Shown: positions 1,404 to 12,208 of the stretch, in pieces
Numbering within the stretch: the first letter of the stretch is position 1
Layout: every line of letters starts with the position of its first letter
NCBI GenBank assembly: GCA_026987255.1
Contig: JALSNA010000229.1
Span: 1 to 12,208, forward strand
From: Hyphomicrobiales bacterium
GTDB lineage: Bacteria > Pseudomonadota > Alphaproteobacteria > Rhizobiales > Aestuariivirgaceae
Direction of reading: 5' to 3'
DNA length: 12,208 nucleotides
Translations under genes and position numbers: made by a program
Notes under the pieces: model-generated
What the model saw: only the letters and a program-made list of their open reading frames with translations
Databases searched by the model: none
What the model was told of the DNA's origin: nothing

Positions 1404-1653
1404 GGGTCTGGTCTCAATAAAGGCGTGGATGCCAGCGGCAAATGCACAAGATATCAGCGGCCTTGTCTTGCCCGCCGATAGTTGCGCTATTGGCAGGCAA
1501 GACAAGGCCGCCAAGATGCAGTGCTTTTGTCGCCCGAAGGGGATGGCGGCCAGCAACAGAAGAGAAGCACTTACGCTTGTAATTGCACATTTTTTCATGG
1601 TCTCCTGTTGCTGGCCGCCAGACTGGCGCCACGTTTTTATTGAGTCCGGACCC
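1404..1653. repeat. Palindromic dispersed repeat, copy A (longest form, about 250 bp)
   Basis: The left end reads gggtctggtctcaataaa. The reverse complement of the right end reads gggtccggactcaataaa, so 16 of 18 positions agree. TA dinucleotides flank both ends (1402-1403 and 1654-1655). The interior holds two further inverted repeats. One has 25-bp arms (1457-1481 and 1487-1511, loop 5 nt) with one wobble and one mismatch. The other has perfect 16-bp arms (1544-1559 and 1605-1620, tggcggccagcaacag). Positions 1601-1638 are identical to 11995-12032 in copy D, and 1419-1436 to 11930-11947. Paired ends plus TA flanks fit a non-autonomous, TA-targeting miniature element, but that class is inferred. 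Transcribed with the operon, it should fold into long stems. Confidence 0.85.
1457..1511. repeat. 25-bp-arm inverted repeat module inside copy A
   Basis: The arms at 1457-1481 and 1487-1511 enclose a 5-nt loop. They begin gcggccttgtcttgcc and match at all but two positions; one of these is a wobble in RNA and the other a mismatch, on either strand. The module is missing from copies B, C and D. It is therefore either a separate insertion into the basic element or a part the shorter copies have lost. There is no T-run on the minus strand after it, so it is unlikely to be a simple terminator. Confidence 0.85.
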
Positions 1654-1655
1654 TA

Positions 1656-1719
1656 GGGTCTGGTCCCGATCAAGGCATGGATGCCGGCCTGGCGCCATGT
1701 TTTTGTTGAGTCCAGACTC
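1656..1719. repeat. Palindromic dispersed repeat, copy B (minimal form, about 64 bp)
   Basis: It begins gggtctggtcccgatcaa. The reverse complement of its right end begins gagtctggactcaacaaa, so the two ends are inverted repeats. Almost nothing lies between them except the paired core catgg-atgcc / ggcgccatg. It is flanked by TA at 1654-1655, shared with copy A, and at 1720-1721. The A/B junction reads ccctaggg. It is best explained as an internally deleted relative of copy A inserted next to it, or as the product of a local duplication. Confidence 0.8.
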
Positions 1720-1793
1720 TAGGATACAAGCCGTTAAGGGAAGTTGAAAATCCCGTTTTGCACCCCGGAACGGAACACTTTTCTTCCCCGCGC

Positions 1794-2978
1794 TCAGGAT
1801 TGCAATTCGCGGGCCAGTTCACGCGCCTTTTGCCGCCCGTAAGCATCCGCCGCCCAGACGTCATCCAGATCTCGCAAATGCCCGAAAACGCCATCCGGGC
1901 CGGCCCGCTCCAGCACCTCGGCCACCAGCGGCACGATGCGCACAAAGCCGATCCGCCCTTCCAGGAAGGCGGCCACCGCAACCTCGTTGGCGGCATTGAG
2001 AATGGTGGTGGCGTTGCCCGCCTTCTCCAGCGCCGCAAGCGCCAGGGAGGGGGCCGGAAAGCGCCCGGCATCCACCGGCTCGAAGGTGAGCGCGCCCAGC
2101 TCCACCAGATCGAGGCGCGCAACCGGCGCGCTGATGCGCTGCGGCCAGGCCATGGCGCAGGCGATGGGCGTGCGCATGTCCGGCATGCCCAGTTGCGCCA
2201 GGGTGGAGCCGTCCACGTAGGAGACCAGGGAATGGATGATGGATTGCGGATGAATGACCGCATCGAGCTGGCCGGCCTCCACGGGATAGAGATGATAGGC
2301 CTCGATGAGCTCCAGGCCCTTGTTGGTCAAGGTGGCCGAATCGATGGTCACCTTGGCCCCCATGTCCCAGTTGGGATGCTTCAGGGCCTCTTGCGGCGTC
2401 ACGTTGCGCAGCGACTCCAGCGAGCGGGTGCGGAACGGCCCGCCGGAGGCCGTCAGGGTGATCTTTTCGATCTGGCGCGCGTTGTGCGGTTCGAAACACT
2501 GAAAGATGGCGCTGTGCTCCGAATCCACCGGCACGACATCCACCCCCAGCTGCCGCGCCCGGCCCATGAACAGCTCTCCGGCGGAGACCAGGCACTCCTT
2601 GTTGGCCAGGGCGATGGTATTGCCCGCCTCCAGCGCCGCCAGCGACGGTTTCAGCCCCGCCACCCCGACGATGGCCGCCATGACCATGTCCACCGGGCGC
2701 GCCGCCGCCTCAAGCACCGCCGCCTCCCCGGCCGCCGCCGCGATGCCGGAGCCGGCCAGCGCCTCCCGCAGCGGCTCCAGAAGACTTTCGTCCGCCGTCA
2801 CCGCCACCCTGGCGCCGAATTCCCTGGCATCGGCGGCCAGCCGCCCGATATTGGCATTGGCCACCAGCGCCTCGATGGTGAAGCGCTCCGGGTGATGGCG
2901 CACGATGTCCAGGGTCGATTGGCCGATGGAGCCGGTCGATCCCAGGATGGTCAGTCTCTTGCAAGCCGTTTGCGCCAA
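1794..2978 (-). CDS. dxr: 1-deoxy-D-xylulose 5-phosphate reductoisomerase
   Basis: This cytosolic enzyme converts DXP to 2-C-methyl-D-erythritol 4-phosphate with NADPH, the committed step of the MEP isoprenoid pathway and the target of fosmidomycin. At 394 aa it has normal length. The NADPH-binding GSTGSIG is at residues 13-19, the metal ligands are in VDSEHS (D152, E154) and NKGLE (E223), and the substrate-loop TASGGPFR is near 176-183. The frame has no ATG at the right place. The start is a TTG at 2978, preceded by AAGGAG with an ideal 6-nt spacer and 16 nt downstream of the cdsA stop. Its product feeds the UppS step encoded two genes upstream. The gene (symbol ispC in some genomes) is followed by the repeat-filled gap. 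Confidence 0.97.
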   Translation of the reverse strand: MAQTACKRLTILGSTGSIGQSTLDIVRHHPERFTIEALVANANIGRLAADAREFGARVAVTADESLLEPLREALAGSGIAAAAGEAAVLEAAARPVDMVMAAIVGVAGLKPSLAALEAGNTIALANKECLVSAGELFMGRARQLGVDVVPVDSEHSAIFQCFEPHNARQIEKITLTASGGPFRTRSLESLRNVTPQEALKHPNWDMGAKVTIDSATLTNKGLELIEAYHLYPVEAGQLDAVIHPQSIIHSLVSYVDGSTLAQLGMPDMRTPIACAMAWPQRISAPVARLDLVELGALTFEPVDAGRFPAPSLALAALEKAGNATTILNAANEVAVAAFLEGRIGFVRIVPLVAEVLERAGPDGVFGHLRDLDDVWAADAYGRQKARELARELQS

Positions 2979-2994
2979 TGATGTCTCCTTCGCC

Positions 2995-3843
2995 TTACCA
3001 GATCAAAAGGCCGCGCGCCGCATCCCAGATACCGGCCCGCCAGGCGCCGATGAGCAGGGCCAGCACGGCCGCCGCCACCAGCCCGTCCACCCGGTCCAGA
3101 ATGCCGCCATGGCCGGGGATGAGGCGGCCAGAATCCTTCACCCCGAAGCGCCGTTTGGCGGCGCTCTCGAACAGATCGCCCATCTGCTCGAAACCGCCCA
3201 TGAGCGCCCCCAGCATGAACAGGGCCAGGGCGGACAATCCGGCAAAAATCGCCACGATCCCCCCCGCCAGCGCCCCGCCGAGAACCGCGCCGAAAAACCC
3301 CGCCCAGGTCTTGTTGGGCGAAATGCGCGGCGCGAACCTGGGCCCGCCGATGCTCTTTCCGGCAAAATAGGCCACGGTGTCGGCGCTCCACACGGCGGCA
3401 AAGAGGAACAGAACGGCCGCCAGCCCCTGTTCCCCGCTGCGCAAGGCGGTGAGCGCAAAGGCGGGCAGCGCCAGATAGGGAACGCCCAGCACATGATGGA
3501 GCGTGAACCCGCGCCTGTCCCAGGCGGTGAGCAGAATGGAGGCCACCCAGCAGGCGGCCACGATCAACCCGGCCAGCGCCAGCGGCACAGCCGCGATGCC
3601 GCCAAGCGCCCCGCTCACCCCCGCCATGGCCAGCAGGATGAATTGCCCGGTGTCTCCCTCATGGACGATTGCGGCCCATTCATGGGCCATGAGCAGGCTC
3701 AAGGCCGCCACCAGCAGGGCAAAGGGCACAGGACCTGCCCAGGTGATCAGCAAGACGGCCGGAATCAGCACGGCTGCGGCAATGATGCGCACTGTCAGCT
3801 TGCCGCCCTTGCCCGGCAGGCGGGATGACTCCTGCTTCTTCAT
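2995..3843 (-). CDS. cdsA: Phosphatidate cytidylyltransferase (CDP-diglyceride synthase)
   Basis: This inner-membrane enzyme makes CDP-diacylglycerol from phosphatidic acid and CTP, the branch point for all glycerophospholipids. The protein is 282 aa with about seven or eight hydrophobic segments. The family signature is complete near residues 227-253: S-x-x-K-R, then K-D, PGHGG and DRxDG (ending D250, D253). An upstream SPNKTW element corresponds to the conserved SPKKTWEG region. The frame stays open to 4098 across uppS, but that N-terminal part is low-complexity Ser/Arg/Pro shadow sequence. The ATG at 3843 has GAGGG about 9 nt upstream and starts a normal hydrophobic N-terminus. Its ribosome-binding site overlaps the last codons of uppS, which suggests coupled translation. 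Confidence 0.96.
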
Positions 3844-3856
3844 GATCGCTACCCTC

Positions 3857-4705
3857 TCAAGCCCGGCCGGCCAGTTTGCTCCGCGTTGTCCGCCCGGACG
3901 GCTCGGCCTGCCTGGCCGGCTCGGCCTGCCCGGCCGGCTCGGCCTTGAGGCCGCCAAAACGGCGCTCGCGGCGGGCATATTCCTGCACTGCGGCGCGCAA
4001 GGCTGCGGCATCGAAGTCCGGCCAGAAGCCGGGCACGAAGACCAGCTCAGCATAGGCCGCTTGCCACAACAGGAAGTTGGACAGCCGCTTTTCATCACTG
4101 GTGCGGATGAACAGGTCCGGATCGGGCACGTCCGGCGCGTAAAGATGGGCGCAGATGGCCTCCGGCGTGATCTCTTCCGGTTTCATCCTGCCAACCGCCA
4201 CCGCCGCGGCCAGTTTGCGGGCCGCCGCGGCGATTTCCTGCCGTCCGCCATAGTTGAAGGCGACGATGAGAGTCAGCCCGCTATTGTCGCGGGTCAGTTC
4301 CTCGCAGTCCTCCAGCAGGCGGACGATGTCCGGCTCCAGCCCCTTGCGCTCGCCGATGATGCGGATGCGCACGCCCATCTGGTGCATCCTGGCCACGTCA
4401 TGATGAACGAAATGGCGCAGGAGCGAAAAGAGATAGGAGATTTCCGCCTTCGGCCTGCTCCAGTTCTCCGAGGAAAAGGAATAGATGGTCAGAAATTCGA
4501 TGCCCAGCTCATCGGCCGCGCGCACGGTGCGCCGCACCGCTTCCATGCCCGCCTTGTGCCCGGCGGTGCGCGGCAGGCCGCGCGCCTTGGCCCAGCGGCC
4601 ATTGCCATCCATGATGATGGCCACATGACGCGGCAAGGCATCGGGCGCACCCTGCCCCCCATGCGCATTTTCAGCCTCCTGGCCCATGGATTTCGCGCCT
4701 GTCAT
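3857..4705 (-). CDS. uppS: Isoprenyl (undecaprenyl) diphosphate synthase
   Basis: This cis-prenyltransferase extends farnesyl diphosphate with isopentenyl diphosphate to C55-PP, the lipid carrier for peptidoglycan and O-antigen. The catalytic MDGNGRWA is at residues 32-39 (D33), followed by the SSENWSRP loop near 78-85. Diphosphate-binding R201, R207 and S209 lie in [15 protein letters not shown], where many relatives have a Gly in place of this Asp. At 282 aa it is about 30 aa longer than usual. The extra part is a Pro/Ala/Arg-rich C-terminal tail with three near-identical hexapeptides ([18 protein letters not shown]). The start is the least certain in the cluster: the ATG at 4705 has AAGG very close upstream, and an in-frame ATG at 4687 is the alternative. 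The core fold begins at about residue 25 either way. Confidence 0.95.
3894..3947. repeat. Three tandem 18-bp repeats in the uppS 3' end
   Basis: Units 3894-3911, 3912-3929 and 3930-3947 follow the plus-strand pattern c-y-g-g-m-c-g-g-c-t-c-g-g-c-c-t-k-s. Each unit encodes one hexapeptide of the UppS tail (residues 255-272). A length of 18 bp keeps the reading frame, so copy number could vary without breaking the protein. Confidence 0.85.
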
Positions 4706-4753
4706 TGCCTTGCCATTGTTGCTCTTGCGGTCTGCCGCCGTGCGCAGGAGCGC

Positions 4754-5320
4754 TCACACCTGCATGATTTCCTCATCCTTGCGCGCCAGAAGCTCATCGA
4801 TTTCCTTGATGAAGGTATTGGTCAGCTCCTGCACCTTTTCAGCCAGATCGCGATGCTCGTCCTCGCTGATCTGGTGATCCTTCTCCAGCTTCTTGAGGGT
4901 TTCCATGCCATCGCGGCGCACGTTGCGCACCGCCACCCTGGCCTGCTCGGCATATTGATGCGCCACCTTGCCCAGCTCCATGCGCCGCTCCTTGGACAGC
5001 TCGGGGATCGGCACGCGAATGACATTGCCCTCGGTCTGCGGATTGAGCCCCAGGTTGGATTCGCGGATCGCCTTGTCCACCGCGGGCGCCAGCGAGGCGT
5101 CCCACACCTGCACCGAGATCAGCCGCGGCTCGGGCACCGAGATGGTTCCCACCTGATTCATCGGCATCTTGGAGCCATAGGCATTGACCTGAATGGGCTC
5201 CAGAAGCGAGGCCGAGGCGCGCCCGGTGCGCAACCCGGCGAACTCCTCCTTGAGCACATTGACCGCCCCCTGCATGCGGCGTTTCAGATCCGCCATGTCG
5301 AGATTGCCGGTATCGGACAT
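4754..5320 (-). CDS. frr: Ribosome recycling factor
   Basis: RRF splits post-termination ribosomes together with EF-G, so that subunits can start a new round of translation. The 188-aa protein matches the usual length of about 185 aa. Domain I helices carry LRTGRAS at residues 30-36 and the conserved RNVRRD at 132-137, which faces the peptidyl-transferase centre rRNA. The middle beta-domain spans roughly 40-105, including [19 protein letters not shown]. The frame is open to 5365, but the ATG at 5320 has GGGGAG 9 nt upstream and gives the family's normal N-terminus; the in-frame ATG at 5329 lies directly on that site. It sits 60 bp after pyrH and 48 bp before uppS. Confidence 0.97.
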
Positions 5321-5380
5321 TGTCTTCATCTCCCCTGTCATTCCGGGTTGCGCCTGGCAGAGCACCAGGCCTTGCGGCCG

Positions 5381-6103
5381 TCAGGCCGTCACCGTGGTGA
5401 AAGTTCCCCTGCCCTGCAGGACATCCAGCAAGGCCCCCTCATCGCGGATCGAGAATACGGCCAAGGGTATGCCATTGTCACGCGCCAAGGCAATGGCGGC
5501 GGCGTCCATGACCTTCAGATTGCGCCGCAGAACCTCGTCATAGGTGATGGTGTCGAAGCGGGTGGCCTGCGGGTGCGTCTTGGGATCGGCGCTGTAGACT
5601 CCATCGACGCTGGTGCCCTTGAGCAGCGCATCGCAATGCATCTCCGCCGCGCGCAGCGCCGCGCCGGTGTCGGTGGTGAAATAGGGACTGCCGGTGCCCG
5701 CGGCAAAGAGCACCACCTTGCCCTTTTCCAGGTGCCGCTCGGCGCGCGCGCGGGCAAAGCTTTCGCACACCGTGGGCATGGGAATGGCCGACATGACGCG
5801 CGCATCCAGCCCCTTTTTCTCAAGAGCGTTCTGCATGGCCAGGGCGTTCATCACCGTGGCCAGCATGCCCATGTAATCGGCCGAGGCGCGCTCCATGCCG
5901 CCCGCGGCTCCGGCCACGCCGCGAAAGATGTTGCCGCCACCGATGACCAGGCCGATCTGGTGGCCGCGCCCGTGGGCGGCGGCGATTTCTCCCGCCACCC
6001 GCTCCACCATGGCCATGTCGATGCCGAAGGGCTTGCTGCCCATGAGGGCCTCGCCGGAAATCTTCAGCAAAACGCGCTTGAACCCCTGCCCAGCCTGCGC
6101 CAT
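5381..6103 (-). CDS. pyrH: UMP kinase
   Basis: PyrH phosphorylates UMP to UDP with ATP. It is the hexameric bacterial enzyme of the amino-acid-kinase fold and is usually regulated by GTP and UTP. The 240-aa protein shows KISGEAL at residues 14-20, the glycine-rich GGGNIFRG at 55-62, the UMP-binding [11 protein letters not shown] near 136-146, and VDGVYSADP at 166-174 in the ATP site. The start at 6103 is preceded by AGGAGG with a spacer of about 10 nt. The order tsf-pyrH-frr is widely conserved in bacteria. A hairpin in the 108-bp spacer to tsf could adjust how much transcription reaches this gene. Confidence 0.97.
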
Positions 6104-6137
6104 CCCCTGCTTGCCTCCTGATCAAATCGCCCATGAG

Positions 6138-6165
6138 AAAGGCCCTGCCTTCCAGCAGGGCCTTT
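6138..6165 (-). terminator. Hairpin between tsf and pyrH (partial terminator or processing site)
   Basis: A perfect 11-bp stem (aaaggccctgc / gcagggccttt) encloses a 6-nt loop. In the minus-strand transcript it is followed only by TTTCTC-like sequence, a weak U-tract. It could be a leaky intrinsic terminator that lowers expression of the downstream genes relative to rpsB-tsf, or a stem that protects the upstream mRNA. The stem is seen directly, and the effect is inferred. Confidence 0.6.
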
Positions 6166-6211
6166 AGCATATTCGCCCGCCCTTAACCAGCGCGGGACAA
6201 ATCTGGCAGGA

Positions 6212-7138
6212 TTACACGCCCGCGGTCTTGGCGACCTCGGCGGCAAAATCCTCCTGCTTCTTCTCCACGCCCTCGCCAAGCTGCATGCGGGTAAACCCGG
6301 TCAGCTTGATGGGCGCGCCCACCTCGGCCTCGGCCTCCTTGATGACCTTGGCGATGGGGGTCTCGTTGTCCATCACGAAGATCTGCGACAGCAGCACCGA
6401 TTCCTTGAAGAACTTCTTCATCCGGCCTTCCACCATCTTCTCGATGATGTTCTCCGGCTTGCCCGATTCGCGCGCCTGCTCCACGTAGACGGCTCTTTCG
6501 CGCTCGGCCACATCGGCGTCGATGTCCTCCTCGCTGAGCGCCAGCGGGGCGGCGGCGGCCACGTGCATGGCCAGCTTCTTGCCCAGCTCCTCCAGCTTGG
6601 CCGTATCACCGGCCGATTCCAGGGCCACCAGAACGCCGATCTTGCCCAGTCCGGGCGCGGCCTGGTTGTGCATGTAGGCCACCACGGCGCCTTCCGGCAC
6701 CTCCTGGTAGGCGGCCCGGCGCACCGTCATGTTCTCGCCGATGGACCCGACCATCTCCTTGACATGCTCCTCGACGGACTTGCCCGCACCGGGGAACGGG
6801 GCCGCCTTGAGGGCCTCGACATCGCCCCTGGTCTCCATGGCCACGGAAGTGATCTTGCTCACCATGTCCTGGAACTGGTCGTTGCGGGCCACGAAATCGG
6901 TCTCCGAATTGACCTCGACCAGCACCCCGCGCTTGCCATCGGTGGCCACGCCCACCAGACCTTCGGCGGCGGCGCGGGAGGACTTCTTGGCCGCCTTGGA
7001 AAGACCCTTGGCGCGCAGCCAGTCCACGGCCTTTTCCATGTCGCCATCGTTTTCCGTCAGCGCCTGCTTGCAGTCCATCATGCCGACGCCGGTCTTTTCG
7101 CGCAGCTCTTTCACCATGCTTGCGGTGATCTTGCTCAT
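6212..7138 (-). CDS. tsf: Translation elongation factor Ts
   Basis: EF-Ts is the nucleotide-exchange factor that releases GDP from EF-Tu. The 308-aa protein is full length. The N-terminal UBA-like domain carries [18 protein letters not shown] at residues 10-27. The EF-Tu-contacting TDFVARN motif is at 80-86, matching the family's key Asp-Phe pair. Two further core subdomains and a coiled segment follow. The ATG at 7138 has AAGGAAGG upstream at normal spacing. It lies 49 bp after rpsB, its usual partner, and both are probably transcribed from the promoter upstream of rpsB. Confidence 0.98.
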
Positions 7139-7187
7139 TGTCTCAACCTTCCTTGAAAATTCAGCTCTTCGGCGCCCATCCGCCGCA

Positions 7188-8291
7188 TCAGCTCCTGGCC
7201 GCCTTGGCCTGATCCGTCTTGGCGCGCGGGGCCTTGCCGGCCATCAGCTCCCTGGCCTGCTCGATCCACTCCTCGCGCTCGATGCGCCCGCGCAAGGAGA
7301 GCTTCTCGTCCAGCTCCCTGGCCGCCTCTTCGGTCAGCTCGGCAATCTGCCTGAAGGTGGTGAACCCGGCATCGGCCAGCTTCTTGACCAGCACCGGCCC
7401 GACGCCGGAGAGCAAGGACAGATCGTCCCCCTGCCCGGCTTCCGCGGCGGGGGCCTCTTCGGCCTGTGCGGCCTGCGGCGCAGCCTTGGCCTCTTCGGCA
7501 GCGGCAGGCTCTTCGCTGGTGGCGGGCTCCTCGATCTCCACCAGCGCCTCTTCCACCACCGGCGTTTCCATCTCGCCGATGTCCTCGCCGGAGGCCGCCG
7601 CCGACATGGAGATGCCGTCGATGGCCGCCTTGGAGACAAGATCGCAATAGAGCGCAATGGCGCGCGAGGCATCATCGTTGGCCGGAATCGGGAAATCGAT
7701 GCCCTTCGGATCGCAGTTGGTGTCGAGGATGGCGACCACCGGGATGTTCAGGCGGTTGGCCTCCTGGATGGCAATCTGCTCCTTGTTGGTGTCGATGACG
7801 AACATGATGTCGGGAATGCCGCCCATGTCCTTGATGCCGCCAAGGGCGCGCTCCAGCTTGTCGCGCTGGCGGGTGAGCTGCAAAAGCTCCTTCTTGGTAT
7901 AGGCATCCGCCTTTTCCGAATCGAGAATGTCTTCCAGCTTGCGCAGCTTGCGGATGGAGTTGGAGATGGTCTTCCAGTTGGTCAGGGTGCCGCCCAGCCA
8001 GCGGTGATTGATGTAATACTGGGCGCAGTTCTTCGCCGCCTCGGCAATGGGCTCGGAGGCCTGCCGCTTGGTGCCGACGAAGAGCACCCGCCCGCCCTTG
8101 GCGACGACATCGCGCACCTTCACCAGCGCCTGGTGAAACAGCGGAATGGTCTGCGACAGATCAATGATGTGAATCCCGTTGCGCGCCCCGTAGATATAGG
8201 GGGCCATCTTGGGGTTCCAGCGGTGTGTCCTGTGGCCGAAATGCGCACCGGCTTCCAAAAGCTCGCGCATGGAAATTTCAGGCAATGCCAT
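7188..8291 (-). CDS. rpsB: 30S ribosomal protein S2 with acidic linker and helix-hairpin-helix tail
   Basis: S2 is a late-assembling small-subunit protein located between head and body. The family core covers residues 1 to about 225, with [15 protein letters not shown] (15-29), LFVGTKRQA (70-78) and [10 protein letters not shown] (97-106). At 367 aa it is about 125 aa longer than E. coli S2 (241 aa). Residues 233-290 form an Ala/Glu-rich acidic linker. Residues about 291-351 resemble a helix-hairpin-helix unit ([20 protein letters not shown], then [14 protein letters not shown]), followed by a basic end. Similar units occur on other alphaproteobacterial proteins, such as bL21 and some NuoE proteins, as I recall the families. 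The frame is open to 8336, but the ATG at 8291 has GAGGAGA at good spacing and the standard [15 protein letters not shown] start. Confidence 0.97.
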
Positions 8292-8423
8292 GGCCTGGTC
8301 TCCTCGTTTTCCGGTTGAACCTCCACGCCCGGACATGCATCCCCTTCGAGGGACACCGGACGGCCCATGCGCTATGTGGGGAGCCTCCTCCCGTGCGCAT
8401 CAGCCAGCCAGGCGCGTGTGAAT

Positions 8424-8456
8424 TGACCGCGCAAGGCATCGGGCCCTGCACGGTCA
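8424..8456 (-). promoter_or_regulatory. Leader hairpin of rpsB mRNA (candidate S2 autoregulation site)
   Basis: On the minus strand, arms TGACCGTGCAGGGC and GCCTTGCGCGGTCA pair over 14 bp, with two G-U wobbles, around loop CCGAT. The hairpin begins almost exactly at the start site predicted from the upstream promoter, so it would sit at the 5' end of the message. E. coli rpsB is repressed by S2 binding to its leader, but I do not recognise this structure as that one. A second small stem (GGGAG/CTCCC) lies near 8381-8394. A regulatory role is inference. Confidence 0.5.
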
Positions 8457-8462
8457 CGCGTT

Positions 8463-8491
8463 GTCATATGGCAAGAGGCGGCACATTGCAA
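8463..8491 (-). promoter_or_regulatory. Candidate promoter of the rpsB-tsf cluster
   Basis: On the minus strand, TTGCAA (8486-8491) is followed after 17 nt by TATGAC (8463-8468). Each matches the sigma-70-type consensus at four of six positions, at ideal spacing. Just upstream is a small perfect inverted repeat, GCGGA-TTG-TCCGC (8492-8504), between the tRNA 3' end and the -35 box. It could be part of tRNA termination or an operator. Transcription would start near 8456, about 165 nt before the rpsB ATG. Confidence 0.5.
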
Positions 8492-8516
8492 GCGGATTGT
8501 CCGCAAAAGCGAAAAA

Positions 8517-8604
8517 TGGCGGAGGGGGAGGGATTCGAACCCCCGGAGGCTTTCGCCTCAACGGTTTTCAAGACCGCCGCATTCGACCACTCTGCCACCC
8601 CTCC
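8517..8604 (-). tRNA. tRNA-Ser (anticodon UGA)
   Basis: The 88-nt gene includes an encoded CCA (8517-8519) after discriminator G. The acceptor arms GGAGGGG and CCCCTCC pair fully. The anticodon stem GCGGT/ACCGT encloses the loop CTTGAAA, giving anticodon TGA (8568-8570). The long variable arm (GAGGCGAAAGCCTC) marks a class II serine tRNA, and the T-arm carries TTCGAAT. It reads UCA and related serine codons. Five T residues follow the CCA on the minus strand, and the rpsB promoter starts within 30 nt. Confidence 0.97.
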
Positions 8605-8653
8605 GGCTCCGGCTGGACATATGCCCGTCCAGAGAGCACCTTGACCACTGGCC

Positions 8654-8682
8654 ATAGATAGCGATTTGCGGACGATTGACAA
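8654..8682 (-). promoter_or_regulatory. Candidate promoter of tRNA-Ser
   Basis: On the minus strand, TTGTCA (8677-8682) and TATCTAT (8654-8660) are separated by 16 nt, with a start expected about 40 nt before the tRNA. A 9-bp inverted repeat (GGCCGCCGC / GCGGCGGCC, 8684-8692 and 8707-8715, loop 14 nt) lies just upstream. It could end tolC transcription, although no T-run follows it. Confidence 0.45.
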
Positions 8683-8737
8683 GGGCCGCCGCGTCCACCT
8701 TGTCAGGCGGCGGCCGCAAATCTCTCCGGTAGCCTGG

Positions 8738-8810
8738 AGCTCTGGTCTCAATAAAGGCGCATTTGCGGCCCCTTGGGGGCTGGCGCCACGCTCTTGCTGG
8801 GCCCGGACCC
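8738..8810. repeat. Palindromic dispersed repeat, copy C, touching the tolC stop codon
   Basis: The left end agctctggtctcaataaa matches the copy A left end except in its first three bases. The right end, read in reverse, starts gggtccgggcccagcaag and continues into the shared gcgtggcgcca core. The interior is only about 30 bp. TA follows the right end (8811-8812). The left boundary is ambiguous, because there is no TA directly beside it and the nearest one is at 8730-8731. On the minus strand, the flanking TA plus the first G of the repeat make the TAG stop of tolC. Confidence 0.75.
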
Positions 8811-10216
8811 TAATCGTGGGTGCCGAAGAGCCTGGACTTCACCATCCGGTAGTGGCGGGCCGGGTCGTAGGCCGCCGCCTTCAGGCGCAAGCGGTAGGCT
8901 GTCAGATCGCCGATGGCCGCCAGCAGCGAATAGGCCGCCGTCATCTCTGCCGCGCGGGCCGAAACGCTGGCGACGCGCGCATCCAGCAGCTCCTGGCGCG
9001 AATTGAGCACATCCAGCGTGGTGCGCGAGCCCACCTTGTATTCCTGCCGCACGCCATCGAGCGCCAGCCGCGCCGCCTTGACCCGCGCCCTGGTTGCGGC
9101 GATGACCTGCCGCGCCGCCACCAGGTTGTTCCATGCCGCCACCACCTGGCGGCGCACCGCGCGGCGGGCCACCAGAACGCCGAGCCGCGCCGCATTGGCC
9201 TTGTGGCGCGCCTCGCGCACCGAGGAATAGACCAGCCCGCCCTGATAGAGCGGGATGGAGATGGAGCCCATGATGCGCGCATCCCTGGTCTTGGAGGCAG
9301 CAAAGCCTTCCGCCTTGTTGCGCGAGGCCGAAAGCTGCGCCTGCAAGGATACCGACGGCAACAGATCGCCAAAGGCCACCTTCACGCCATGGCGCGCCGC
9401 TTGCGCGTTGTAGGAGGCCGCCAGAATGCTGGGATTGAGCCGCCCGGCGCGCCCCAGAGCGGCACGCAGGCTGCGCGGATGTTTCGGGCAATGGCGGGGG
9501 AAATAAAGCTTTCCGGGCTTGTGCCCCACCGCCTGCGCATAGGCCGCCTCGGAGGCCGCCAGCTGGGCCCGCGCCTGGGCCGCGTCGGCGCGTGCCTTGG
9601 CCACTGCGGCGCGCGATTGCGAAACATCCGTGCGGGTGATCTCACCCACCTTGAAGCGCGCCTCGGTGGCCTTCAATTGCTCGCGCAGCACCGCGATGTT
9701 GCGCTGCCTCAGGGCCAGGATCTGCCGGTCGCGCACCACGTTGAGATAGGCCACCGCGGCATCGAGCAGAACCTTCTGCTCCACCGCCAGCAGATTCTGC
9801 CGTCCGGCGCGCACCGCCGCCTTGGCGCGCTTGACGCCCTCCACCGTCTTGAAGCCATTGAACACCGGCTGCGTCAGGGTGATGGACACGCTTTCCGAAT
9901 CATAGTTCTGGCCAAAGCCTGGCATGGGCGTCGTTTTCTTGTGACCCACCGCCAGCGAACCCTTGGCGAAAACCTGTGGCCGCCAGCCGGACTTGGCCTT
10001 GGCCACGCCTTCGTCCACCGCCCGCAAGGAGGCGCGCTCCGCTGCGATCTGCGGATTGTTCAGATAGGCGCGCGTCAGAGCCGCCGAAAGGCTCTCCGCC
10101 TGCGCCGCCAGGGAAGGAAACAGCGCCGCCATTCCGGCAAGGGAAGCCACGGCAAGCCGCCGCATCCGCATCTTGCCCGCCTGCCGGGCGCGCCGCGCTT
10201 TGGTGTCAGGATACAT
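8810..10216 (-). CDS. tolC: TolC-family outer membrane efflux / type I secretion protein
   Basis: This is the outer-membrane channel-tunnel that completes tripartite drug efflux pumps and type I secretion systems. The 468-aa protein has normal length, with two internally repeated halves. Recognisable parts are the N-terminal SLSAALTRAYLNNPQIAAERASLRA, the strand ITLTQPVFNGFKT, its second-half counterpart SISIPLYQGGLVYSSVREARHK, and long Ala/Arg/Gln-rich helices typical of the tunnel. A signal peptide (basic MRMRR, then a hydrophobic stretch ending LAAQA|ES) begins at residue 16. The true start could therefore be the ATG at 10171; the ATG at 10216 has a GGGGACGGG upstream. The stop codon is formed at the edge of repeat C, so the original C-terminus may have been different. 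No partner pump genes are in view. Confidence 0.92.
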   Translation of the reverse strand: MYPDTKARRARQAGKMRMRRLAVASLAGMAALFPSLAAQAESLSAALTRAYLNNPQIAAERASLRAVDEGVAKAKSGWRPQVFAKGSLAVGHKKTTPMPGFGQNYDSESVSITLTQPVFNGFKTVEGVKRAKAAVRAGRQNLLAVEQKVLLDAAVAYLNVVRDRQILALRQRNIAVLREQLKATEARFKVGEITRTDVSQSRAAVAKARADAAQARAQLAASEAAYAQAVGHKPGKLYFPRHCPKHPRSLRAALGRAGRLNPSILAASYNAQAARHGVKVAFGDLLPSVSLQAQLSASRNKAEGFAASKTRDARIMGSISIPLYQGGLVYSSVREARHKANAARLGVLVARRAVRRQVVAAWNNLVAARQVIAATRARVKAARLALDGVRQEYKVGSRTTLDVLNSRQELLDARVASVSARAAEMTAAYSLLAAIGDLTAYRLRLKAAAYDPARHYRMVKSRLFGTHD

Positions 10217-10386
10217 CTAACCCGTCCCCTGCTTTCAACTGTTCGAACGCTCATCCCGCAAGGATGCCGCCAGTCTTGTGCCGCCAGCGCTCATCCGTGA
10301 CGCCAGCCAAGGACACCTTGACCCACGTCTTCGCCCTGTGGGCGCACCTTGCCCCCATGCAGCCTTCACGGCCACATCAGAGTGAC

Positions 10387-10392
10387 AGTATA
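10387..10392 (-). promoter_or_regulatory. Possible -10 box for tolC
   Basis: The minus-strand hexamer TATACT matches TATAAT at five of six positions and lies 171 bp upstream of the tolC start. No good -35 box is seen at 16-18 nt. The promoter may be activator-dependent, or the match may be chance. Confidence 0.3.
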
Positions 10393-10617
10393 GCCGATTC
10401 CCGCCCATGCCGCGCAAAAAGGTTTGCAATGGCTCGCCACCTTGCGGCAAGGCCCGGCTGTCATCGCCGCTCATGAATACAGCATGAAGAGCCCCCCTGC
10501 CAACACCCATCACGGCCTGCGGGGGCAAAAAGGGCGCGCCTGTTGCCCCCTTGCCACGGCCACGAGCGGGCCGGAAGGGGAAAACCTCGCCTCATTTGCA
10601 AAAATGACGCAAATCCG

Positions 10618-10646
10618 TTGTCAAGTCCCGGGCTTTGTCATATAGA
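10618..10646 (+). promoter_or_regulatory. Promoter of tRNA-Cys
   Basis: TTGTCA (10618-10623) and TATAGA (10641-10646) are separated by exactly 17 nt. The predicted start is about 15 nt before the tRNA. This is the best promoter match in the window. Confidence 0.7.
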
Positions 10647-10667
10647 AACCGCATCACTCTTCGGAGC

Positions 10668-10741
10668 GGCCTCGTGGCGGAGTGGTGACGCAGCGGACTG
10701 CAAATCCGTATACCCCGGTTCGATTCCGGGCGAGGCCTCCA
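10668..10741 (+). tRNA. tRNA-Cys (anticodon GCA)
   Basis: The 74-nt gene includes encoded CCA. The acceptor arms GGCCTCG and CGAGGCC pair fully, with discriminator U as expected for cysteine tRNAs. The anticodon stem GCGGA/TCCGT encloses the loop CTGCAAA, giving GCA. The T-arm is CCCGG-TTCGATT-CCGGG. It is the only complete plus-strand gene in the window and converges with the deacetylase gene 41 bp away. A 5-bp GC stem (10757-10770) in that gap is the only terminator-like structure. Confidence 0.97.
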
Positions 10742-10782
10742 TCTTCCCCCTCGGCACGCCGCGACCGGCGAACCACGATCCT

Positions 10783-11835
10783 TCAGGCCACCTTCAGTCT
10801 GCGCAGCCCGTTGAACAGGGCAAAGGGCGTGCCGGTCAGCAGCGCATCCACATAGCGGATCTTCTGGTAAAAGCCGTTCAGCGACACCCTGGGCAGTGCC
10901 GTGAGATGGTCTGCGTGCCCGGCATGCAAAAGCCCCTTGCGGGTGGTCACCGCCGCCGCGAAGCCAAGTTCCGCCGCCAGCCGGAAATCCCGCCGGCCTG
11001 CCGTTTCCTCGTCGCCATAGGGATAGGCGAAGGTGTCCACCACCTCCCCCAGTTCCGCTTCCAGCCGCGCCCGCGAGGCCGCCATTTCATGGCGCGCTTC
11101 ATCCTCCGGCAACAAGGAGAGTGCATAATGGCGCATGGTATGGGCTCCGATGGAGCACAAGGGATGCGCGGCGATTTGCCGGATTTCCTCCCAGCCCATG
11201 ACCTGCTCCCGGCACAGGGCCGCGAGATCCACCCCATGGCGCGAAGAAAACTCCCTGATCCAGCGCCTTTGCGCATGCTGCTCCATGCCCCTCACCGGCC
11301 AGTAAAGGGCATCCCAGGCAGCTTGCCGCTCTGCATCGCCGGCGCATGAAAGCACCTCCGGCAGGCCTTCAAGGCCTGGCCTGATTTCCTCGTTTTGTGC
11401 CATGGCGCGTTCCAGCGCATCCCACCACAGTTCACCCTTGCCATCGGCATAATCCGGGGCAATGAAAATCGTGAAGGGGCACTCCTGCGCCGCAAAGACC
11501 GGCAGAGCATGTTCCAGATTGTCACGAAACCCGTCATCCAGCGTGAACACCGCAAAGGGCCGCTCCAGGGCTCCCCCGGCCAGCCGCCTGGCCGCGTCAC
11601 GCAAGCTGATCAGTTCCCAGCCGCGCGCCTTGACGAAGCCGATGACCGCATCGAGAAACTCCGGCGTGACATCCAGCCCCGCATTGGGCGCAAAGGTGCT
11701 TTCCGTGGCCTTTTGCGGGCGCACGTGATGGAGCATGAAAATGGCCCCCGCCCCGCCGAACAGGGGCGCACCGGCCCTGGATAGGCCGGAATAATGCAAA
11801 AAATCGAGACTGGCGCGCATGAGGGCTGGGTTCAT
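10783..11835 (-). CDS. Polysaccharide deacetylase family protein (NodB homology, CE4)
   Basis: Members of this family remove acetyl groups from N-acetylated (sometimes O-acetylated) sugars in cell-wall, exopolysaccharide or chitin-type polymers, using a bound metal. The 350-aa protein shows motif 1 as FTLDDGF at residues 97-103 (catalytic-base and metal Asp100/101), motif 2 as H-T-M-R-H (metal His232 and His236) and motif 3 as FAYPYGD at 269-275. A segment of about 100 residues (130-228, with WWDALERAM) separates motifs 1 and 2, longer than in minimal NodB domains. No signal peptide or membrane segment is evident, so the site of action and the substrate are unclear. The start at 11835 has AGGAAG about 9 nt upstream. 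No glycosyltransferase or other sugar genes are visible alongside to suggest a pathway. Confidence 0.88.
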   Translation of the reverse strand: MNPALMRASLDFLHYSGLSRAGAPLFGGAGAIFMLHHVRPQKATESTFAPNAGLDVTPEFLDAVIGFVKARGWELISLRDAARRLAGGALERPFAVFTLDDGFRDNLEHALPVFAAQECPFTIFIAPDYADGKGELWWDALERAMAQNEEIRPGLEGLPEVLSCAGDAERQAAWDALYWPVRGMEQHAQRRWIREFSSRHGVDLAALCREQVMGWEEIRQIAAHPLCSIGAHTMRHYALSLLPEDEARHEMAASRARLEAELGEVVDTFAYPYGDEETAGRRDFRLAAELGFAAAVTTRKGLLHAGHADHLTALPRVSLNGFYQKIRYVDALLTGTPFALFNGLRRLKVA

Positions 11836-11914
11836 GGCTTCACGCTTCCTTTCAAATCATCCCGAACAGACCATGCATGTCACACAAACCTTGATTTTGC
11901 GCTAACCGCCTCCA

Positions 11915-12047
11915 GGGTCCGGCCTCGACAAAGGCGTGGATGCCAGCAAAACGAGAAAAACACTCAAGAATTGCAATTGCACACCTTTCCCTTCTCTCCT
12001 GTTGCTGGCCGCCAGACTGGCGCCACGTTTTTGTGGGTCTACGCCCC
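11915..12047. repeat. Palindromic dispersed repeat, copy D (intermediate form, about 133 bp)
   Basis: The left end is gggtccggcctcgacaaagg. Positions 11930-11947 are identical to copy A 1419-1436, and 11995-12032 are a perfect 38-bp match to copy A 1601-1638. The A block containing the 25-bp-arm hairpin is absent, so D looks like A with that module missing. The right end (gtgggtctacgcccc) is degenerate, and TA is not kept on either side, which suggests an older copy. Confidence 0.8.
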
Positions 12048-12067: not shown

Positions 12068-12096
12068 TTGCCCCTGCTCCGGCAAGCCTATATAAG
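12068..12096 (+). promoter_or_regulatory. Candidate promoter for the downstream plus-strand gene
   Basis: TTGCCC (12068-12073) and TATAAG (12091-12096) are 17 nt apart, and the -10 is embedded in tatataagg. A 6-bp inverted repeat, CTTGCC / GGCAAG (12067-12072 and 12081-12086), overlaps the -35 and spacer and could be an operator. Confidence 0.5.
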
Positions 12097-12101
12097 GCAG
12101 C

Positions 12102-12145
12102 GCAAAAGCCGCGCCCGCACCTGGTCCGGGGCCGCGGCCTTTTGC
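12102..12145 (+). promoter_or_regulatory. 5' leader hairpin (possible attenuator) before the last gene
   Basis: GCAAAAGCCGCG pairs with CGCGGCCTTTTGC with a single bulged base, and there is further C/G pairing inside. The next bases are CTTTTGACC, a short T-run. The stem begins where the promoter predicts the transcript to start. It may be an mRNA-stabilising 5' stem or a weak attenuator. Confidence 0.5.
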
Positions 12146-12156
12146 CTTTTGACCCG

Positions 12157-12178
12157 GCAACCATCAAGCAACCATCAA
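12157..12178 (+). repeat. Perfect 11-bp tandem direct repeat in the leader
   Basis: The unit gcaaccatcaa occurs twice back to back (12157-12167 and 12168-12178), 6 nt before the ribosome-binding site. It may be a slippage duplication or a binding site. Confidence 0.8.
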
Positions 12179-12196
12179 AACTCGAGGAACACCGCC

Positions 12197-12208
12197 ATGA
12201 CCGAGCGC
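12197..12208 (+). CDS. First four codons of an unidentified gene (partial)
   Basis: The ATG at 12197 reads M-T-E-R and runs off the window. A GAGGA (12184-12188) lies 8 nt upstream, and a promoter, leader hairpin and repeat precede it, so a real start is likely. The product cannot be named from four codons. Confidence 0.55.

Follow-up and report, generated by a model that had tools for sequence, protein, structure and literature searches.

A stretch of 12,208 nucleotides (contig JALSNA010000229.1 of assembly GCA_026987255.1, hereafter the window) carries four palindromic repeats, A, B, C and D, which are copies of one dispersed, small, non-coding repeat. The host, a Hyphomicrobiales bacterium related to hot-vent species, is represented by an assembly of 2.5 Mb in 529 contigs with 98.8% completeness, in which the window is contig C229; genomes, contigs and loci are referred to below by numbers beginning with G, C and L. 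Our analysis indicates that these repeats are very probably non-autonomous miniature inverted-repeat transposable elements (MITEs), moved in trans by an IS5-family transposase of IS427 type, inserted at TA, graded in size by loss of hairpin arms and built on one interior lineage that occurs with several IS5-type ends. As we envisage the process, a transposase of the kind encoded by the IS427 group of IS5 insertion sequences (IS) would be supplied in trans, recognize inverted ends of about 18 bp and insert the element at TA, with duplication of this dinucleotide. The interior would be a nested set of near-perfect palindromes, whose arms could be lost, probably via replication slippage on hairpins, between the short direct repeats, GCCAG(C), that stand at their bases, to give the series of 250, 132 and 64 bp. 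The same interior lineage would have been combined with different IS5-type ends, designated types 1, 2 and 3. The window contains the following features.

1402–1403, unstranded: TA flank left of copy A (from the sequence); one dinucleotide, TG, stands here at the empty site of G062
1404–1653, + strand: copy A, full-length MITE of 250 bp with both ends of type 1 (pattern, fold and BLAST searches)
1427–1544, + strand: conserved core of copy A, predicted to be structured, together with the stem at its base (92.6 bits with covariance model R1; the model was built from 18 sequences, a piece of copy A among them, which bears on this score)
1654–1655, unstranded: single TA common to copies A and B (from the sequence)
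1656–1719, + strand: copy B, 64-bp deletion form consisting of ends only, with TA at 1720–1721 (from the sequence; length predicted from the GCCAG repeats of copy A)
8738–8810, + strand: copy C, an odd deletion form with a decayed left end (from the sequence)
11915–12046, + strand: copy D, 132-bp deletion form and hybrid, with a left end of type 1 and a right end of type 3 (from the sequence)

The positions that an earlier examination of the bare sequence (the sequence-only reading) had given for the four copies were confirmed by sequence check. The right end of D is an exception to the common end pattern that it had assigned to them and belongs to another end type (GGGCGTAGACCCACAAA). Its statement that every well-preserved end lies at TA is true at the two termini of A and of B and at the right end of C, but the left end of D (two mismatches) adjoins CA; the left end of C is decayed. 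Copies A and B are arranged head to tail with one TA between them. The last base of the right end of copy C forms, together with the following TA, the TAG stop codon of tolC (window 8810–8812), and in copies on contigs C124 and C469 the first G of the element and its TA flank likewise make up the TAG stop of the adjacent predicted gene.

Searches of the host assembly with the 18-bp type-1 end pattern, allowing up to two mismatches, revealed 36 sites against none for the reversed control, and BLAST with A+B gave 77 matches, self included; by pattern, BLAST and sequence inspection, 23 copies or fragments were listed. The high genome-wide copy number proposed by the sequence-only reading was thereby confirmed, and the opposite outcome that it had named, few or no further copies, was not seen. 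At the same tolerance, the type-2 end pattern had 86 matches and the type-3 end pattern, GGGCGTAGACCCAYAAA, had 37 matches in this genome, against one for each control. As expected of MITEs, the paired elements (115 distinct ones, 62–494 bp) are short, bounded by inverted ends and without a transposase, apart from two that are not plain MITEs, namely an internally deleted IS (L146/L109) and a pair of neighbours (L117). The latter had been a candidate hybrid and was dropped because it spans two neighbouring elements; hybrids with mixed ends are copy D in the window, L100 in G060 and L093 in G066. Overlap with predicted genes never exceeds 15 bases in the 23 own copies; gene calls here and below come from a small codon model, for which 10 genes of the window served as the training set, and not from annotation, and several own loci have a gene on one side only, owing to contig ends. 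A further repeat of the own genome, TCTGAAGACCATCCTCACCCCCTGCC, occurs with up to four mismatches at nine places in the fetched loci, some on the reverse strand (L252:198, L230:247, L256:302, L263:1574, L008:2060, L016:1612, L069:4656, L340:574 and L345:1385); at L252 it is contained in a type-3 element of 388 bp, and at L016 it directly adjoins a type-1 copy.

Type-1 ends were preceded by TA in 94 of 132 cases over all fetched loci (CA in 22, TG in 7); for comparison, 0.94% of all dinucleotides in the window are TA. At type-2 ends TA was found in 92 of 127 cases, with lower shares for type 3 (10/18) and its variant in G059 (5/9). Elements lying end to end gave 12 junctions, eight of them with a common TA; the A–B junction is an extra case outside the 12, missed since the left end of B is diverged. 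The gap between rseP and dxr, which holds A and B, measures 448 bp in the window versus approximately 80–227 bp in the seven relatives readable there (three further relatives were not read at this place), and the A+B insertion is absent from all seven, as the sequence-only reading had anticipated for orthologous sites. Identical repeats at the same positions across distant species, which it had regarded as the mark of a conserved RNA, were not seen. G062, the one of the seven that was aligned as an empty site, was chosen for its similar-looking flanks. Its sequence aligned with the joined window flanks gap-free across the junction (AAAT-TA-GGATAC in the window, AAAT-TG-AGATAC in G062), with a score of 57.5 compared to a maximum of 52.5 in 500 base shuffles. 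The earlier expectation of a single TA at such a site was thus borne out as to the single dinucleotide, but not as to its identity. Together, the TA at type-1 ends and the one dinucleotide at the aligned empty site match what a 2-bp target duplication would leave. Elsewhere, a type-2 element of G067 (L232:1501–1644) has two flanks that match different contigs in all six relatives searched, as if it marked a point of rearrangement.

Copy A is a nested palindrome with a computed fold of −160.4 kcal/mol (z = −14.4). Its direct repeats lie at offsets 27 and 145 (both GCCAGC) and 213 (GCCAG); deletion between repeats 1 and 2 predicts a length of 132 bp, which is that of D, and deletion between repeats 1 and 3 predicts 64 bp, which is that of B. 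Among the 115 paired elements, 64 bp was observed six times, 132 bp twice and 133 bp twice, always in the own genome. The modular interior noticed by the sequence-only reading was thus corroborated, the sizes fitting deletion between the GCCAG(C) repeats. As far as the compared IS stretches show, the interiors do not appear to be IS remnants; one of 101 interiors matched these stretches, over 21 bases (E = 7e-4).

Insertion sequences bearing the same 18-bp type-1 end in genomes G061, G063 and G066 carry pieces of an IS5-family transposase. Seven of the 39 assigned scan loci of G061 continue from the type-1 end into a transposase start, MSELFWLSDGQW, and are cut at the contig end; the right end of the type-1 IS is visible in L199, where a C-terminal transposase piece beside the type-1 end matches the IS5 model NF033580 (8.2e-11). 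An internally deleted copy with both ends is present in G066, and a decayed copy with one end in G063, where the remnant matches DUF4096 (6e-10, over the cut-off) and NF033580 (9e-12). The type-2 end, GGCTCAGGACCCATAAA, borders L154, the type-2 partner IS, whose two frames match DUF4096 (2.1e-25), DDE_Tnp_1 (1.3e-18) and NF033580 (2.6e-34 and 1.4e-37), all over the cut-offs; the frames meet near an A/G run, and the copy is truncated by the end of its contig. Type-3 ends were not found on any IS. A pattern search for type-1-like ends in the DUF4096 loci L152–L164 recovered, besides the known end in L162, a single site in L153 that looks like a chance match. Judged by these matches, partners with the same ends do encode a putative IS5-type transposase, in sister genomes and in pieces, and the likely helper of the MITEs is an IS5-family transposase, the pieces being consistent with the IS427 group. 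The IS427-group elements listed for Paracoccus have inverted repeats of 13–21 bp and a length of 832–865 bp, duplicate 2 bp with one exception (4 bp) and in some cases have two open reading frames with a frameshift motif (PMC3281130).

Since IS427-group IS5 elements duplicate 2 bp too, TA alone is no pointer to IS630, and it had been the only ground on which the sequence-only reading assigned the repeats to IS630/Tc1-mariner. Flanks of TA, as observed here, fit IS630/Tc1-mariner elements as well, yet the own genome has no match to DDE_3, the IS630 domain, at E <= 0.001 (a search that did not extend to the sister genomes), and it is IS5-type transposase pieces that the same-end elements encode. 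The earlier assignment is thus unsupported, and an origin of these MITEs from an IS630/Tc1-mariner element appears very improbable. Some observations weigh against an IS5-type helper and TA duplication as proposed here. The own genome has no DUF4096 match, and no partner gene was demonstrated in the host; the pieces in L199 and G063 are short and fall below the NF033580 whole-protein cut-off; the type-1 IS is never whole, its copies being cut at contig ends or decayed; the only aligned empty site, in G062, has TG rather than TA; and a second candidate, at L232 in G067, gave a synteny break and not an empty site. The partner of the own genome may have been lost, or may be missing from the 529-contig assembly.

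The history of the interior was compared with that of the ends, starting from the 104 best core rows. Excluding 14 that lack paired ends left 90, and removal of near-copies reduced these to 52, which served for both the identity values and the tree. Interiors of G060 and G068 with type-1, type-2 and mixed ends were 0.89–0.96 alike between these groups, compared to 0.56 for the type-2 interiors of G060 versus G061, as measured on an alignment (A3, used as well for loop conservation and core-model scores) that was fitted to model R1. On the tree of 52 interiors, the approximately unbiased (AU) test rejected a single group of all type-1 rows (p = 0.001) and likewise of all type-2 rows (p = 6.5e-32). 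One origin being rejected for end types 1 and 2, it follows that ends have changed while the interior stayed the same. End type nevertheless remains clustered on the tree, with six changes against a possible minimum of four and a shuffle mean of 21.5. Such changes could have come about by point mutation following the transposase, without any exchange of ends: types 1 and 2 are separated by only about three substitutions and one indel, and a mixed end, GGGTCTGGACTCATAAA, is present once, in G061. This we consider rather unlikely, given that within a single genome, G060, almost the same interior is combined with type-1, type-2 and mixed pairs, and that the mixed element there fits the two end patterns perfectly and is flanked by TA left and right. 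Copies of IS that directly abut MITE ends, with one TA in between (L187, L199 and L213), suggest a possible route by which ends might be replaced.

All end types share a core, mostly 74–76 nt, between the same motifs, which is modelled as an imperfect hairpin with conserved internal loops kept across species. RNAalifold, applied to a MAFFT alignment of 18 chosen cores from seven genomes, gave 38 pairs, 26 of them changed on both sides. No match of the elements to Rfam was obtained at the gathering score, the only matches in the window being two tRNAs, and a relaxed search on A/B gave eight miRNA-type hairpin matches, all below cut-offs; the remark of the sequence-only reading that this family was not recognized as described agrees with this result.

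Covariation in the core was strong: 98 double-change cells were counted, whereas shuffles gave 34.5 (sd 4.4) and sliding never more than 32. The figure is favoured by the counting of pairs on the same alignment that yielded the structure and by the relatedness of the sequences. Internal-loop and unpaired positions inside the outer stem were at least as conserved as paired ones (0.82 versus 0.78 in 14 diverged interiors), and the 64 gene ends found within 60 bp of an element comprise 40 3' ends and 24 5' ends. These observations favour a conserved structured RNA (regulator, terminator or mRNA stabilizer) that was spread by transposition and is itself under selection. Nevertheless, such an RNA seems improbable: the core shows no strand preference relative to genes, with 23 sense and 18 antisense cases in tandem gene pairs (p = 0.53) and 21 versus 19 at gene 3' ends (p = 0.87), the position of A+B is not conserved, and short copies such as B have no core. 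The even strand distribution therefore makes an mRNA element less likely, leaving either a function at the DNA level or plain maintenance of the palindrome; a conserved cis-acting RNA with a fixed strand found no support in these counts, which depend on the codon-model gene calls. Of the core-bearing elements, 89 of 90 lie outside predicted genes. The covariation might instead be purely mutational, with template switching in palindromes, rather than selection, preserving arm complementarity. In one 250-bp copy on C124 the loop is the reverse complement of that of the C45 copy (CACCA versus TGGTG), a signature that points to template switching on the hairpin; the arms of type-1 copies in the own genome are close to perfect, and the derivation of the structure from the counted alignment fits this explanation too. 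Template switching should erase internal loops as well, yet loops of AAA and GCA type persist across species and end types, and we hold a purely mutational origin to be a real possibility without preferring it.

Within the MITE explanation, it can be tentatively suggested that the interior is the persistent unit, a folded DNA 'chassis' in which an imperfect hairpin with fixed internal loops would be selected and which would outlive the loss of any single IS by acquiring ends that suit the IS5-type transposase active at the time; one MITE lineage might in this way repeatedly change helpers and cross the borders of species and perhaps of families. A MITE is commonly regarded as derived from a single IS by deletion. 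In the present case the history of the interior differs from the history of its ends. The family, with G060 as a genome that combines several end pairs, offers a natural system for asking how non-autonomous elements change their helper transposase, and whether selection or palindrome repair maintains a hairpin core within a MITE.

In a scan of one genome per species over 84,980 species, which may omit records near the own genome, the exact pattern TAGGGTCTGGNCTCAATAAA was found at 52 loci, all in four metagenome-assembled genomes (one Thermopetrobacter sp., the others listed as Hyphomicrobiales or Alphaproteobacteria bacterium), and A+B had no match in 72,556 plasmid records. A family scan with up to one mismatch matched 9 of 69 genomes, that is, 7 of 11 in the own genus (own genome included) and 2 of 58 outside it, the latter two (G003 and G033) with one match each and without a partner end. 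Two models were searched in sampled genomes under strict filters, with at most 14 or 9 candidates scored per genome: the longer core model matched in 8 of 397 genomes of the order, four of them in the genus, and the inner-hairpin model, among 385 genomes of the class, matched in the own one only, so that a widespread RNA found no support in these samples. Strong core-model matches were those of G000, G059 and G064, in the genus, and of G115, from another family; the matches of G063, G084, G186 and G220 were weak (32–38 bits), and G084, G186 and G220, where they lie in different surroundings, are not claimed as members. Core elements of G115 (L317, L324, L329, L334, L339 and L344) have type-2 ends and TA flanks and are closely similar to those of G064, which suggests horizontal transfer or a binning error. 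G084 holds a different palindromic repeat (L320, L333, L338 and L343) with ends AGAGCATGTTTTGGCTAGATAG and a core-like inner hairpin (CCGCAGGCAATA...TATTGTCAAGG; 32–38 bits). At the edge of the window, its last 127 bases (12082–12208) are identical to the start of contig C371 (L313, G000), and by this overlap the two contigs are probably neighbours.

Among the matches listed in literature searches on MITEs with IS5 or IS427, hairpin or chimeric MITEs, end swapping and Thermopetrobacter, this MITE family was not described in titles or abstract beginnings, and those on Thermopetrobacter contained nothing on repeats at that level. Correia-type MITEs of the IS630/Tc1-mariner kind have TA flanks, short inverted ends, many intergenic copies and a hairpin interior, all of which are common to the elements described here; the differences are the IS5-type partner and ends that look unrelated. 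REP, BIME and REPIN sequences are likewise intergenic palindromes with imperfect hairpins, the tagged palindrome going together with a tyrosine transposase, whereas the present elements have TA flanks and inverted ends common to IS of the DDE type. With bacterial MITEs in general, which are intergenic, form stable stem-loops and are moved in trans by IS, they agree in their intergenic position and stem-loops and differ in having one interior with several end types, a feature absent from the portion of the article consulted (PMC10969869). A close resemblance is also seen to the IS427 group of the IS5 family and its derived MITEs, with which they have in common the 2-bp duplication (TA), the inverted ends and a putative IS5_3/DUF4096/DDE_Tnp_1 transposase in the partner, group features as given in the Paracoccus listing (PMC3281130), as well as, in the type-2 partner L154, two frames meeting near an A/G run; in contrast to IS427-group MITEs, their interior is a conserved nested hairpin and, judged by the compared IS stretches, not an IS remnant, and it occurs with several end types.

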